NCBI GenBank assembly: GCA_013343275.1
Contig: CP046106.1
Coordinates: 496,001-560,000, forward strand
Direction: 5' to 3'
DNA length: 64,000 bases
Source: Candidatus Nanohaloarchaea archaeon
GTDB lineage: Archaea > Nanohalarchaeota > Nanosalinia > Nanosalinales > Nanosalinaceae
The notes under the pieces were generated by a model. That model had not been told where the DNA came from and did not search any database. It was given only the letters and a program-made list of their open reading frames with translations. The position numbers and the translations under genes were made by a program. This document shows, in pieces, positions 1,424 to 46,549 of this stretch (positions within the stretch are counted from its first letter, which is position 1; each line of letters starts with the position of its first letter).

Positions 1424-1566
1424 TGGGAAAGCCGGGAATCGAACCCGGGACCTCTGCGTATCTCACAAACGAATTGTTTTATTTAATCATCAAGGCCTTC
1501 CGTCGGCCTCTCATTGCTCATAAAGTTGTTATGAGCGCAGCGCTCTAACCGCTGAGCTACTTTCCC
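1424..1566 (-). tRNA. tRNA-Met (CAT), elongator type, with 70-nt intron
   Basis: The minus strand folds as a standard tRNA: acceptor GGGAAAG/CTTTCCC with discriminator A, D arm GCTC/GAGC, anticodon stem CTGCG/CGCAG, T arm CCGGG/CCCGG with TTCGATT loop. The loop CTCATAA gives anticodon CAT (complement of 1531-1533). The gene is 143 nt; removing about complement(1460..1529), placed between positions 37 and 38, leaves a 73-nt mature tRNA. This is the usual archaeal intron site, cut by the splicing endonuclease at a bulge-helix-bulge. An Ile-CAU identity (lysidine/agmatidine type) cannot be fully excluded from the anticodon alone. Confidence 0.9.
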
Positions 1567-1668
1567 AAACTTTGAAGCGAAGTTTGATCACGCTCGGCTC
1601 CAAAGGAACCGACTTCAGAAAGTTCCTGAACGCCACCGTAGGTGGCTTCACGCGTGCCGCACTCCGCG
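1566..1668 (-). repeat. Hairpin-rich spacer between tRNA-Val and tRNA-Met
   Basis: The 113-base gap between the two tRNA genes is packed with small inverted repeats. In + coordinates: CAAACTT/AAGTTTG (1566-1572, 1580-1586); TCGGCTCC/GGAACCGA around AAA (1594-1612); GAAcGCCACC/GGTGGCTTC around GTA (1628-1649); weaker CGCG arms (1651-1668). The second hairpin has a C-A mismatch when read on the + strand but a G-U pair on the - strand, so it is better formed in the tRNA-Val to tRNA-Met transcript. It may be a processing spacer of a tRNA precursor; function is unknown. Confidence 0.6.
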
Positions 1669-1679
1669 TTAGGAGGCGA

Positions 1680-1753
1680 TGGGTTCGCCCGGATTCGAAC
1701 CGGGGATCTCCGCCATGTCAAGGCGGTGTCATAACCAGCTAGACCACGAACCC
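1680..1753 (-). tRNA. tRNA-Val (GAC)
   Basis: A 74-nt cloverleaf on the minus strand: acceptor GGGTTCG/CGAACCC with discriminator A, anticodon stem CCGCC/GGCGG with loop TTGACAT (anticodon GAC, complement of 1717-1719), T arm CCCGG/CCGGG with loop TTCGAAT. No intron. It lies 113 nt upstream of tRNA-Met on the same strand, so both may come from one precursor. CCA is not encoded. Confidence 0.95.
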
Positions 1754-10985: not shown

Positions 10986-11315
10986 ATGCCCGAGAATCAA
11001 AGACGAGCGCCGGCAAGGCCTAAAGATATCGAGGAGATCGACCCGCAAAAAGATATTAGAGTACGAGTCGTAGGAACAGTAATTTCAGTAGACGACGACT
11101 CTGTCACAATCGACGACAGCACCGGATCTGTAGAGGTATTCCTGGAAGACGAGGCCATGGAAGATCTTGAAGAACAGCAGAGAATTAGAGTGCTCGGCCG
11201 AGTACTGCCGACCCCTGACAGCTTTGAAATCCAGGGAGAGATCGTGCAGAGCTTCGAAGACGTCGACCCAGAAATCTACGACAGCGTTAAAAAAGTTGTT
11301 AACACTTCTGAGTAA
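10986..11315 (+). CDS. OB-fold nucleic-acid-binding protein
   Basis: A 109-residue protein with one OB-fold: IRVRVVGTVISVDDDSVTIDDSTGSVEVFLEDE (about 24-57) is the typical beta strand pattern of a tRNA_anti/RPA-type domain, followed by RIRVLGRVLPTPDSFEIQGEIV. A basic, Pro-rich N-terminal tail (RRAPARPKD) may touch nucleic acid. It ends 15 bases before the PCNA gene, so it probably acts in replication, for example as a small RPA-like partner; this is inference from place and fold. Confidence 0.8.
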   Translation: MPENQRRAPARPKDIEEIDPQKDIRVRVVGTVISVDDDSVTIDDSTGSVEVFLEDEAMEDLEEQQRIRVLGRVLPTPDSFEIQGEIVQSFEDVDPEIYDSVKKVVNTSE

Positions 11316-11330
11316 CATAGGTGAGGAGGG

Positions 11331-12083
11331 GTGTTTAAAGCAGAAATCGAAGATGTTGGACTTCTACAGGACTCAATGAAAACCATTTCAGACCTAATCA
11401 GTGAAGGCCTATTCCAGTTAAAGGATGACGGCATTCACCTGGTTGCAGCAGACCCTGCAATGGTAGGTCTGGTAGATTTCCACATCGAAAAAGACGTATT
11501 CGAAAACTACGAACTTGATGAAGAATCAAAAGTAGGCCTAAATCTAGAAAATCTATACTCAATTCTTCGAAGAGCAAACAGCGATGACACAATTACTCTC
11601 GAAGTAAAGGACGACGAATCCAAGTTTTACATCAACATGGAAGGCCGCAGCACGAGAAACTTCTCACTGCCGATCCTCAATCTTTCAGAGGACGACATTC
11701 CTTCCACAGACCAGCTTGACTTCACATTCGAAGGAGAACTCGAGACAAAAGTTCTCGAAAGCGCTATAAAAGACGCGATGGTCGTCTCAGACTCCGTAAC
11801 AGTAACGGCCTCAAAGGACAGCATCGAGATCTCGGCAGAAGGCGACCAGTCCGATGTAGACTTCAAGATTACAGAGGACTCAGAAGGAGTACTGGAGCTT
11901 TCAGGAGAAGAGGCCAACTCAATGTTCAGCCTCGATTACCTGTCAAAGATGATCGGCGCCAAGAAACTATCAGATACAGTCACAGTCAAGATGGCCGACG
12001 AATTCCCAGTCAGACTGGAGTTCGAGATCCCAGATGAGGCCAACCTGAGCTTCGTACTGGCACCACGCATAGAAGAAGATTAA
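11331..12083 (+). CDS. pcn: DNA sliding clamp PCNA
   Basis: Ring-shaped clamp that holds polymerases, ligase and repair factors on DNA. The 250-residue chain starts at GTG 11331 after a strong GTGAGGAGGGG site and has the family landmarks: MVGLVDFHIEKDVFENYEL (about 44-62), the interdomain link, and the C-terminal block FPVRLEFEIP...LSFVLAPRIEED. The last residues RIEED plus stop are copied twice downstream with synonymous changes (see the repeat entry). It follows the OB-fold gene in one operon. Confidence 0.95.
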   Translation: MFKAEIEDVGLLQDSMKTISDLISEGLFQLKDDGIHLVAADPAMVGLVDFHIEKDVFENYELDEESKVGLNLENLYSILRRANSDDTITLEVKDDESKFYINMEGRSTRNFSLPILNLSEDDIPSTDQLDFTFEGELETKVLESAIKDAMVVSDSVTVTASKDSIEISAEGDQSDVDFKITEDSEGVLELSGEEANSMFSLDYLSKMIGAKKLSDTVTVKMADEFPVRLEFEIPDEANLSFVLAPRIEED

Positions 12084-12215
12084 CTTCTTTCTATGCTTAA
12101 ACCAGAAGATCTCTGATCTTCGGATCCACGCATCGAGGAAGACTAAGGCTTCTCACGTGCTCTAAGAAGCATTATTGAATGCTTCGTCACGTATTGAAGA
12201 GGATTAAACCTCTTC
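12063..12215 (+). repeat. Hairpin array repeating the 3' end of the PCNA gene
   Basis: The sequence encoding RIEED-stop occurs three times: 12,063-12,083 (the real gene end), 12,126-12,146 and 12,187-12,207. The codons differ but the peptide does not: cgc-ata-gaa-gaa-gat-taa, cgc-atc-gag-gaa-gac-taa, cgt-att-gaa-gag-gat-taa. Between and within them are perfect hairpins: GAAGATC-tct-GATCTTC (12,105-12,121), GAAGCAT/ATGCTTC (12,166-12,185), GAAGAGG/CCTCTTC (12,196-12,215), and a longer one on the gene end itself (12,067-12,096, one bulge). The remaining bases to 12,265 are AT-rich with no gene. Confidence 0.75.
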
Positions 12216-12265
12216 CCACCTCTTATTTTTCCTAATTTTCTCATCTAAGTAAAAAGAAAGAAAAT

Positions 12266-12952
12266 TTATTTCTCTGATTCAGCGCCGAAGTAAACTACCG
12301 AATCTAGAGGCCCAGAGAAAGCATCCTGAACCCTCTCAACCACACCAGAGAACAGTTCGGAATCTGATTCCCTGTAGGCCCCGAAAGGTATCGGGAAATC
12401 ACTCTGGACATCATAATCAAGGCCTTCCAGCCATTCTTCAACTTCTTCATCGCTGTGAAGTGTACTGCCTTCCGGCATATCATCGTTCAGGTCAGCCATC
12501 CTGCCGTTGTATAGTTTTCTGGCGCTTGACTCGCTGAACACATCGAATACAAAACCTTCCTCTGCTACACGGTTCATCTCATCAATAACTTCTTCCTCAT
12601 CCCCTACAAGGTGGAAAAGCCTTGGAGCAACTATATAATCGAATGCATCGTCCTGATAAGGGAGTCTGTGAGCATCGACACGCACAGCATCTTCCACCCG
12701 GTTATTTGCGACTGCTGCCTGAAGAGGCTCCTGCTCTATATCCGCTGCAAAATTCTCGTAATCATCCAGATACTCTGAAAGCAGTGCAGGGCCTGAGCCT
12801 AGTTCAAGTATTTTATCTCCCTGTTGTGCGCCGAGGCCTTCAAGCATCTCCTCGAAGTTGTGGTTCTGTCTCTCGAGCACCTTCTTTCCGCCGGCGGAAG
12901 AGTACCTTCTCTCTACATAGGTTTCCGGGTCTCTGTATATTTCTTCAGGCAT
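12266..12952 (-). CDS. Class I SAM-dependent methyltransferase
   Basis: A 228-residue small-molecule-type methyltransferase. SAM-binding motif I is ILELGSGPALLSEYL (about residues 48-62), the acidic residue after strand 2 is in FAADIEQEPL, and motif IV is AFDYIVAPRLFHLV. Substrate is not evident; the fold resembles UbiE/Methyltransf_11 proteins. It is a single gene, convergent with the PCNA array and divergent from the primase gene. Confidence 0.8.
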   Translation of the reverse strand: MPEEIYRDPETYVERRYSSAGGKKVLERQNHNFEEMLEGLGAQQGDKILELGSGPALLSEYLDDYENFAADIEQEPLQAAVANNRVEDAVRVDAHRLPYQDDAFDYIVAPRLFHLVGDEEEVIDEMNRVAEEGFVFDVFSESSARKLYNGRMADLNDDMPEGSTLHSDEEVEEWLEGLDYDVQSDFPIPFGAYRESDSELFSGVVERVQDAFSGPLDSVVYFGAESEK

Positions 12953-13036
12953 AGAGACTGTTTACGCAGAAACTTTTTTATCTGAAATCTCGATGTGAGG
13001 CCGGGATTTTTACAGTTTCCTACCGCAATACTAACC

Positions 13037-14440
13037 ATGTCAGAGAAGGGGGGTGAGAAGAGGCCGCAGGACTGGAAGATACGCCAGTACTACGAACAGG
13101 AAGGCCTTAAGGAGAAGATTCTTGACATAGCTGAGTACCGCGAGATCGCTCCTACCTACCCAAACGGTTACGGTAAAAGGCCTGATGCCATCAACTTTCC
13201 AGGCGACTTCCAGGCCCTGGTTGAGGACGGTGCGGTCGCGTTCCATGCCTCTGTTGAGCGGTGGCGTAACCCTCTGCTGATCGACAATGTTTCTGACCTG
13301 GATCAGCTGCGTGAGGCCTGGGATCTGGTAATAGATATCGACTGCGACCACTCATTTGAACTTGCGAAAGATACTGCAGAACTTGTTCTCCGCGAACTGA
13401 AGGATCACGGTATCGAGAATATCAGTGTAAAATTCTCCGGTAACCGTGGATTCCATATCGGAGTCAGGGGGGAGGCCTTCCCTCAGGAGATCGACCAGCA
13501 GGAAATCTCCGATCTATACCCTCGGCTTCCGCGAGGAATAATTGATTACATCCGCGAGAACCTCAGAGATGAAATGGTAGAGCTAATCAAAGAATACGGC
13601 CTGGAGGAGAAGATGGAGACCGACAACGGCAGGAAGCCGTACAAGGTCTCCGATATAGAGAATGACTGGGGTCAGCGCCACCTTTTCAGAATGCCTTACT
13701 CTCTGCACGACGGTTCGTGGCTGGTATCACTGCCGATCGAAATCGACCATATACAGGACTTCGAGAAAGAAGAGGCCGAGATCGACAATGTTGAGTTCGA
13801 AACCGATTTCCTCGACGAGTATGAGGAGGGAGAGGCCACTAACCTTGCAGTACAGGCCATGGATTTCCTGGCCGAGCAGGAGGAAGAGCGGAGGGAAGAG
13901 ATCCAGAAGAAGCAGGATCGAGATTTTGAGAGGCCTGAAGATGCTATCCCCGAACAGCATTTCCCTCCTACGATAAAGAATATTCTGGAAGGCCTAGAAG
14001 ATGGCCGTAAGAGAGGTCTATTTATTCTGCTTAATTTCTACCGTACCGTTGGTTATTCATGGGAGGAGATAGAGTCTAAAATCTGGTCGTGGAATGAACG
14101 GAATAAGGAAGAGCTTGGTGAGACTTACGTGAAGTCACAGCTTCGATGGCACCGTGAGAGAAGCGAGGACGTCCCTCCCCCAAACTACGATTCAAACGGT
14201 TACTACAAGGATATGGGCGTCTATGAAGGAGATAACCTAGAGGAGCAGGTTTCCAACCCTGTAAGTTATGCTTTCCGGAAGGCCAACAGGCGCCAGAACA
14301 GTGAAGAAGATGAAGAGGAAAGCAATGAGAGCGATGAGGTTATGGAGTGTCCTTACTGCGGCAAGGAGTACAAATCCGAAGGTTATTACAAGAAGCACGT
14401 GGAGCAGTGCAACGAGGACCTAGAGGTAAAAAAGCTTTAG
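13037..14440 (+). CDS. priS: DNA primase: PriS catalytic domain fused to PriL C-terminal-like domain
   Basis: Makes RNA primers for DNA replication. From ATG 13037 the 467-residue chain has the archaeo-eukaryotic primase core: VIDIDCD with the metal Asp residues (98-104), SGNRGFHI (134-141), and the RHLFRMPYSLH block (214-224). A linker rich in Glu follows, then at 309-415 a domain matching the PriL C-terminal region (FPPTIKNILEG, GRKRGLFILLNF, PPPNYDSNGYYKDMGV), and last a C2HC zinc finger (Cys438, Cys441, His454, Cys458). At the places where related domains have Fe-S cysteines, Thr, Tyr and Val are found. Lies upstream of GINS. Confidence 0.9.
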   Translation: MSEKGGEKRPQDWKIRQYYEQEGLKEKILDIAEYREIAPTYPNGYGKRPDAINFPGDFQALVEDGAVAFHASVERWRNPLLIDNVSDLDQLREAWDLVIDIDCDHSFELAKDTAELVLRELKDHGIENISVKFSGNRGFHIGVRGEAFPQEIDQQEISDLYPRLPRGIIDYIRENLRDEMVELIKEYGLEEKMETDNGRKPYKVSDIENDWGQRHLFRMPYSLHDGSWLVSLPIEIDHIQDFEKEEAEIDNVEFETDFLDEYEEGEATNLAVQAMDFLAEQEEERREEIQKKQDRDFERPEDAIPEQHFPPTIKNILEGLEDGRKRGLFILLNFYRTVGYSWEEIESKIWSWNERNKEELGETYVKSQLRWHRERSEDVPPPNYDSNGYYKDMGVYEGDNLEEQVSNPVSYAFRKANRRQNSEEDEEESNESDEVMECPYCGKEYKSEGYYKKHVEQCNEDLEVKKL

Positions 14441-16471: not shown

Positions 16472-17227
16472 ATGCGCTGGTACAAAGACAAACCTGATGA
16501 AGGAGACTTCGTAGTAATAACCCTGACGGACGTAGACAAGAACTCTGCATACGCAGATCTGGACGAATACGAAGACCTGACAGGCCTGATCCACATCTCG
16601 GAAGTATCAAGATCCTGGATCCAGGACATCAGAAAAGAACTGAGCGAAGGCGAAAAGACAGTTGCACAGGTAGTAGATACCGAAGACGACAACATCAGCC
16701 TTTCCATCAAGAGAGTAAACGATAATCAGAAAAGAGAAAGCATGGCCCGATGGAAAAAAGAACAGAAGGCCGAAAGCTTTGTAGAAGAACTAGCCGACAA
16801 ACTAGACCGCGACAAAGAAGATTTATTCGACGAAGTAGTCTTCCCTATGCAACGCGAGTTCGGATCCAGCTTCCACGGCTTTGAAATCGCAGAGGCCCGC
16901 GAAGAAGAACTGCAGGAGCTTTTCGACGAAGAAGTAGTGGATGCCATCCAGGAAGTGGCCCGCGAGAATATTAATTTGAAGCAGGAGAAGCTTGAAGGAG
17001 AGCTGGAGATTGCCTTCGATCAGAGCGATGGAGTCGAGCGTTTGAAAGATGCTCTTTCCGAAGTTGAAGAAGGTGTCGAGATAAAGTATGTTTCCGCTCC
17101 AACGTACTCCATCACAGCTTGGGGCCGCACACAGGAGCTGGCGAAGAAGAGAATGGACGAGTCTGTTCGAACTATCCGAGAAAAAGCCGAGGACATGGAT
17201 GGAGAGTTCGAGTTCAACAGGGCATAG
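16472..17227 (+). CDS. eif2a: Translation initiation factor aIF2 alpha
   Basis: Subunit of aIF2, which brings initiator tRNA to the ribosome. The 251-residue chain has an N-terminal S1 domain (DFVVITLTDVDKNSAYADLDEY...LIHISEVSRSWIQDIRKEL, about 10-60, closing at LSIKRV), a helical middle, and the alpha/beta C-terminal domain (YVSAPTYSITAWGRTQELAKKRMDESV). It begins about 86 bases after eS27 behind a TTTTAAAAATC promoter-like stretch, and Nop10 follows four bases later. Confidence 0.95.
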   Translation: MRWYKDKPDEGDFVVITLTDVDKNSAYADLDEYEDLTGLIHISEVSRSWIQDIRKELSEGEKTVAQVVDTEDDNISLSIKRVNDNQKRESMARWKKEQKAESFVEELADKLDRDKEDLFDEVVFPMQREFGSSFHGFEIAEAREEELQELFDEEVVDAIQEVARENINLKQEKLEGELEIAFDQSDGVERLKDALSEVEEGVEIKYVSAPTYSITAWGRTQELAKKRMDESVRTIREKAEDMDGEFEFNRA

Positions 17228-46226: not shown

Positions 46227-46336
46227 AACAAGGTACTGTCCTCTAAAGTTTGAAAACCTTACCGCAAGGCCAACCTCACAAAACATCGAGGTATTTAAGA
46301 AAATAACCGAATAAACCTAGCATACAGTTCCAACGT

Positions 46337-46408
46337 GCGGTGTTGGTCCAGTGGCTAAGACCCCGGCCTTCCAAGCCGGTGACCCGGGTTCAAATCCCGG
46401 ACGCCGCA
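46337..46408 (+). tRNA. tRNA-Gly (TCC)
   Basis: A 72-nt cloverleaf: acceptor GCGGTGT/ACGCCGC with one G-U pair, discriminator A, D arm with TTGGTCC, anticodon stem CCGGC/GCCGG and loop CTTCCAA (anticodon TCC, 46,370-46,372), T arm CCGGG/CCCGG with loop TTCAAAT. A TATA-like TATTTAAGAAA lies about 45 bases upstream. CCA is not encoded. Its 3' end is copied downstream. Confidence 0.95.
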
Positions 46409-46549
46409 AATTTCTCTGGAATTTGCTTGATTAAGAAAATCTCCTGATTTTCGGACGCCGCAAAACTTCTGAAAGTTTTATCATCATAAGCCATGCACTG
46501 CATGGCTTCCGGATTTAGCAGAAGATTTCTAATCTTCGGCACCGCATCC
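46398..46549 (+). repeat. Hairpin array repeating the 3' end of tRNA-Gly
   Basis: CGGACGCCGCAAA (46,398-46,410, the tRNA end) recurs exactly at 46,452-46,464; CGGCACCGCA (46,537-46,546) is a weaker third copy. Five perfect hairpins fill the gaps: GCAAATT/AATTTGC (46,406-46,426), GAAAATC/GATTTTC (46,435-46,452), AAAACTT/AAGTTTT (46,462-46,479), AAGCCATGC/GCATGGCTT (46,488-46,508), GAAGATT-tct-AATCTTC (46,521-46,537). No ORF of note. The stretch 46,550-46,642 has only a promoter for the next gene. Confidence 0.75.

Follow-up and report, generated by a model that had tools for sequence, protein, structure and literature searches.

Hairpin-forming inserts that seem to re-end the PCNA gene and other genes in Nanohaloarchaea

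In the small genome of a salt-lake nanohaloarchaeon, two short hairpin-forming DNA inserts seem to have landed one after the other at the 3′ end of the gene for the sliding clamp PCNA, each supplying the gene with a differently spelled but equivalent ending and pushing the previous ending downstream. Inserts of the same kind sit at the ends of tRNA and other genes in this group, which points to a previously unrecognized mobile DNA. The starting observation, that the peptide RIEED-stop is encoded three times in succession at the end of PCNA, is correct. Of the two explanations initially offered for it, successive replacement of the gene end by integrated elements carrying a recoded 3′ end, or selection on RNA hairpins whose arms are the gene end, the former is largely borne out and the latter holds for the anatomy only, so that the original prediction is supported in part.

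The end of PCNA is encoded three times

The window analyzed is a stretch of 64,000 nucleotides (positions 496001–560000) of a 915,886-bp single-contig genome (Candidatus Nanohaloarchaea archaeon, CP046106.1; hereafter G000). It was compared with one genome of the same genus, the sister species G001, and with 17 other genomes of the family, which include Nanohaloarchaea archaeon SG9 (G008, CP012986.1). The features of the PCNA locus, and of a second site of the same kind in the window, are as follows.

11331–12083 (+): PCNA gene, GTG start, 250 aa (profile matches PCNA_N, 2.5e-19, and PCNA_C, 4.8e-15)
12063–12083 (+): copy 1, the current gene end, PRIEED-stop, CCACGCATAGAAGAAGATTAA
12067–12096 (+): hairpin 1 of unit A; the 5′ arm is the gene end, with the stop codon in the loop
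12084–12125 (+): interior of unit A (42 bp), in our interpretation the newest insert; absent in G001; most like the ppiC unit of G001
12105–12121 (+): hairpin 2 of unit A, GAAGATC-TCT-GATCTTC, followed by GGAT and copy 2
12126–12146 (+): copy 2, interpreted as a displaced earlier gene end, PRIEED-stop, CCACGCATCGAGGAAGACTAA; by position equals the current gene end of G001
12147–12186 (+): interior of unit B (40 bp), interpreted as the older insert, shared with G001 and SG9
12166–12185 (+): hairpin 2 of unit B, GAAGCATT-ATTG-AATGCTTC, followed by G and copy 3
12187–12207 (+): copy 3, interpreted as the oldest displaced gene end, SRIEED-stop, TCACGTATTGAAGAGGATTAA
12196–12215 (+): last hairpin (GAAGAGG/CCTCTTC) followed by a T-rich stretch; possible terminator
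46399–46408 (+): 3′ end of tRNA-Gly(TCC), copy 1 of the second site
46435–46452 (+): hairpin 2 at the tRNA-Gly site, GAAAATCTCCTGATTTTC
46453–46462 (+): second copy of the tRNA-Gly 3′ end, GGACGCCGCA
46463–46546 (+): second tandem unit at tRNA-Gly, comprising hairpins, GAAGATTTCTAATCTTC-GG, then a third, diverged end copy CACCGCA

The spacings between the PCNA copies are 63 and 61 bp, so only the first two share a frame. RIEED-stop itself begins at 12066, position 12063 being the start of the preceding Pro codon, which is Ser in copy 3. Every difference within RIEED-stop lies at a third codon position and is synonymous. Whether other gene ends show the same pattern had been posed in advance as a check, and of the 1,027 called gene ends in the genome, PCNA is the only one whose whole 7-codon end recurs within 300 bp (18/21 nt), whereas matching gene ends to the flanks of other genes gives about 0.017 cases per genome at 18/21. 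Comparison with related genomes, likewise asked for at the outset, showed the same arrangement, with two copies, after PCNA in G001 and in SG9, with a conserved spacer ATGCTCTAAGAAGCAT-loop-ATGCTTCG, and in none of the other 16 genomes of the family. A class I methyltransferase gene (12266–12952, minus strand) lies convergent between PCNA and the primase small subunit in G000 and G001, and is lacking from the 20-kb stretches around PCNA in most other family genomes.

It had been argued beforehand that neutral copies of a noncoding tail should not keep the peptide, and this holds up in simulation. When a gene copy restricted to synonymous changes and a free downstream copy were allowed to diverge up to the observed number of differences, the downstream copy kept the peptide with probability 0.02 (copies 1/2 and 1/3), 0.0005 (copies 2/3), 0.005 (G001), and 0.085 (SG9). 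Duplication followed by drift is therefore a poor account. Selection on the distal peptide alone fares no better, since with only the three orthologous distal copies the excess of third-position changes is not significant (hand estimate about 0.09), and a coding role for the distal copies is not shown either. Import of a long PCNA tract by ordinary homologous recombination was also considered, but synonymous divergence along PCNA and its neighbors gave no clear breakpoint at the gene end.

Anatomy of the units

The downstream copies are the repeats of two consecutive units of ~60 bp, each consisting of the gene end, a first hairpin that uses the gene end, a linker ending in A, a hairpin of the form GAAR...YTTC, a G, and then the next gene end. 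Each copy is the 5′ arm of a hairpin with the stop codon in its loop, and the 191-nt region folds far better than shuffled sequences (z = −5.3, 0 of 200 shuffles as stable). Compensatory changes were seen at three of 24 pairs. A search of positions 11300–13100 against Rfam covariance models returned nothing near a gathering score, and patterns built on the conserved spacer and the recoded ends gave no match in viral contigs.

Related units at tRNA and other gene termini

A covariance model of the PCNA unit gave strong matches only at PCNA, but its weak matches lay at tRNA 3′ ends and beside an integrase gene, with the same order of parts. G000, G001 (whole genome), and part of G008 were then scanned, without using annotation, for 12-bp direct repeats 40–110 bp apart with a GARR...TTC-G hairpin abutting the second copy. 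Strict repeats (11 of 12 or better) gave seven hits in G000, all within 25 bp of a gene terminus (background 9.8% in the binomial comparison) and six of them at a tRNA terminus (background 0.46%): tRNA-Gly(TCC) 3′, tRNA-Gly(GCC) 3′, tRNA-Cys 5′, tRNA-Lys 5′, tRNA-Tyr 5′, tRNA-Pro 5′, and the junction before a prephenate-dehydrogenase-like gene (tyrA). The reversed-sequence control gave none. Looser repeats added PCNA in G000 and, in G001, ppiC, PCNA, and tRNA-Leu, beside the strict hits of G001 at tRNA-Glu and tRNA-Ser; at this setting 15 of 16 hits in the three genomes lie within 25 bp of a gene terminus, although the reversed-sequence control also gave 3 and 4 hits. Family membership outside G000 and G001 was sampled rather than counted. 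Reading outward from the gene body, the order is always copy 1, hairpin 1, hairpin 2, copy 2.

One such site lies in the window itself, where tRNA-Gly(TCC) (46336–46409) is followed, up to 46546, by two tandem hairpin units and two more copies of its 3′ end (GGACGCCGCA and the diverged CACCGCA), the same anatomy as at PCNA. Elsewhere in the window (1500–1753, minus strand), tRNA-Val(GAC) is followed by a run of several hairpins up to an intron-containing tRNA-Met, and G001 has a diverged version of the same run. At the junction before the prephenate-dehydrogenase-like gene (L105, about 16565–16650; G000 C1:676565–676650), the upstream gene end RGDFE-stop is duplicated around a small GTG-started ORF, and an 82% identical 73-nt block sits between uL18 and uS5 in the genome G012 (L146:9034–9106). 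Two other repeated gene ends were noted. At G000 C1:912683 (L117, minus strand), a 24-bp gene end, TTTTTACCCTACTAAATTACC.TTA, is tandemly repeated 33 bp downstream without the hairpin anatomy, and at about G008 C1:502053 (L121), the gene end RSMYHG-stop recurs as RSMYSG-stop 133 bp on, closing a small ORF whose ATGGCTGA start overlaps the first stop.

Inferred mobility and recoded ends

Units at different genes resemble each other well above shuffled sequences: tRNA-Gly(GCC) of G000 and tRNA-Glu of G001 score 70, two tRNA loci of SG9 score 59, tyrA of G000 and the uL18/uS5 junction of G012 score 48, and PCNA unit A and ppiC of G001 score 38, against a shuffle maximum of 29 in 4,200. The pair of PCNA units A and B is not in that list; unit A is nearer to the ppiC unit of another species than to unit B next to it, so it is not a tandem copy of B. 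Some orthologous sites are empty. G001 lacks the units at tRNA-Lys 5′, tRNA-Tyr 5′, and tRNA-Gly(GCC) 3′, with flanking sequence that continues as in G000 at the first two, and it lacks PCNA unit A. The spread is patchy: G000, G001, and SG9 do not form a clade in trees from PCNA or from ten linked proteins, which speaks against vertical inheritance from an exclusive common ancestor, so unit B was either lost several times or exchanged.

A recoded end is found in ppiC of G001, which encodes a PPIase with a Rotamase domain. The gene ends ATCAAGAAAACCGAGGAAAGATAA, and 64 bp on the same peptide is encoded as ATTAAGAAGACAGAAGAGCGATAG. The G000 ortholog ends ATCAAGAAGACAGAAGAGCGCTGA, sharing 17 consecutive nucleotides with the distal copy. 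The distal copy is therefore the displaced native end, while the proximal one is recoded at seven sites, all synonymous, an outcome that duplication followed by drift reached in 0 of 20,000 simulations. This test rests on one locus. For PCNA, the order follows from position and not from codons. Whether other strains use a downstream copy as the real end was among the checks proposed beforehand, and copy 2 proves to be continuous with the sequence that follows the gene end in G001, so copy 1 with unit A was added upstream of it.

We consider it more likely than not that two short hairpin-pair inserts landed successively at PCNA, each bringing a synonymously recoded end on its gene side and displacing the previous end, so that the protein stayed intact. 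In this view unit B is older, and unit A is newer and found only here. The analysis demonstrates the anatomy, its recurrence at gene termini, near-identical units at different genes, empty sites, and a native displaced end at ppiC; what we infer from these is that movement is att-like recombination between an incoming gene-end copy and the resident one, probably by a tyrosine recombinase acting in trans. Neither the enzyme nor the circulating form was identified, and no circle or autonomous element with these ends was found. Tyrosine recombinases are encoded in all three genomes, but the PF00589 hits lie far from PCNA, and no large element with hairpin 2 beside a displaced tRNA end turned up. 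One unit in G001 does lie next to a tyrosine recombinase gene (PF00589, 2e-12), but there it marks the far end of an apparent 28-kb island (G001 C1:205046–233541; L129, L128, L127) between tRNA-Gly(TCC), whose 3′ end reads ACACCGCA, and a displaced GACGCCGCA end, and the unit lies on the chromosomal side. The inserts are only about 40 bp plus the copied end, with no integrase next to them, so no large integrative element is seen. The arms of unit B are conserved between G001 and SG9 while the loops have diverged, although synonymous sites are near saturation (four-fold sites between G000 and SG9 differ at 55%), which suggests a retained function beyond mobility, or repeated exchange. A retained role in 3′-end formation is possible and not excluded by the insertion history.

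Alternative explanations

An explanation purely in terms of RNA structure, in which the PCNA end is a terminator or 3′-processing hairpin, further hairpins were added by local duplication and kept by selection on pairing, and the peptide is kept only because the hairpin arm is the gene end, appears unlikely to us. It draws on the stability of the fold, the compensatory changes, the conserved arms with diverged loops, and the T-rich stretch after the last hairpin; transcript ends were not examined. However, the same anatomy at tRNA 5′ ends, read outward on the opposite strand, cannot be explained by RNA 3′-end function, nor does this reading explain the likeness of units at unrelated genes or the foreign/native pattern of the ends. 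Moreover, in copy 3 of G000 and G001 the RI codons are unpaired in the consensus fold yet conserved, and few genes in this genome have a strong stop-in-loop stem.

We regard as equally unlikely a transposon-like insertion with a long (12–26 bp) target-site duplication of the gene terminus, its copies identical at birth and later diverging, by a Cas1-type or other unknown transposase. Each site's repeats match its own target, as in the same unit with tRNA-Gly repeats in G000 and tRNA-Glu repeats in G001, and at tRNA sites, where the two copies are nearly identical, a plain target-site duplication fits as well as a carried copy. Yet divergence after duplication should break the peptide in the neutral copy, the distal ppiC copy is native while the proximal one is recoded, no Cas1 was detected in G000 or G001, and the units have no terminal inverted repeats. 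Least likely is tandem duplication or replication slippage of the gene end and its hairpin with gene conversion between copies. The 61–63 bp period, the two to three copies in different species, and the greater closeness of the two SG9 copies to each other than to those of G001 would suit it, but it is weakened by the resemblance of unit A to the ppiC unit rather than to unit B and by the recurrence of the motif at unrelated gene ends.

Relation to known systems

The closest parallel is with tyrosine-recombinase integrative elements that use the 3′, or rarely 5′, ends of tRNA or coding genes as att sites, documented for archaeal integrated elements including one that replaces the stop codon (PMC6563490). 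In NitEve-E2 of Nitrososphaera, the gene terminus is the target, the direct repeats are short (13 bp), and the element restores the reading frame with its own sequence and stop codon; arrays can form at one site (PMC6563490). The units described here share direct repeats made of the gene terminus, empty sites in a relative, and, at the single locus ppiC, a recoded end on the element side with the native end displaced. They differ in being short (37–77 bp) and without genes, in carrying a fixed hairpin pair, in occurring at many different tRNA and coding genes in one genome, and in having no integrase gene within the element. Phage 21 and e14 at Escherichia coli icd likewise replace the end of a conserved gene with a synonymous version and displace the old end, but these are whole prophages, and this parallel was not tested here.

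Casposons target gene 3′ ends, including that of EF-2, and tRNA ends, with direct repeats of median 15 nt and tandem insertions, but are multi-gene elements with Cas1 and terminal inverted repeats (PMC4046053). In the units at most 3 of 8 terminal bases match, and Cas1, undetected in G000 and G001, is present in SG9 and in the genome G010. The integron attC core site GTTRRRY with its inverse core occurs in none of 21 units. REP and MITE-type short palindromic repeats are also short, gene-free, hairpin-forming, mobile by inference, and outside coding sequence, but long target-matched direct repeats and strict placement at gene termini are not part of those families; a RAYT/Y1 transposase was not sought in the genome.

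Implications

A bolder possibility, which we hold only tentatively, is a new class of gene-free mobile DNA of 40–60 bp with two hairpins that inserts only at gene termini (tRNA 5′ and 3′ ends, starts and stops of coding genes), preserves the gene by supplying a recoded terminus, is perhaps recombined as folded single strands by a host or phage recombinase, and is exchanged between Nanohaloarchaea species.

Restoration of a gene end with a synonymous copy is known from large integrative elements. Here it appears at the scale of about 60 bp, at essential genes such as the sliding clamp and tRNAs, and several times per genome of under 1 Mb. Gene-end repeats of this kind would be a cheap marker for finding such elements in other genomes. 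If confirmed, this would give DPANN archaea a mobile DNA that rewrites gene ends without harm, and displaced ends that record the order of past insertions.
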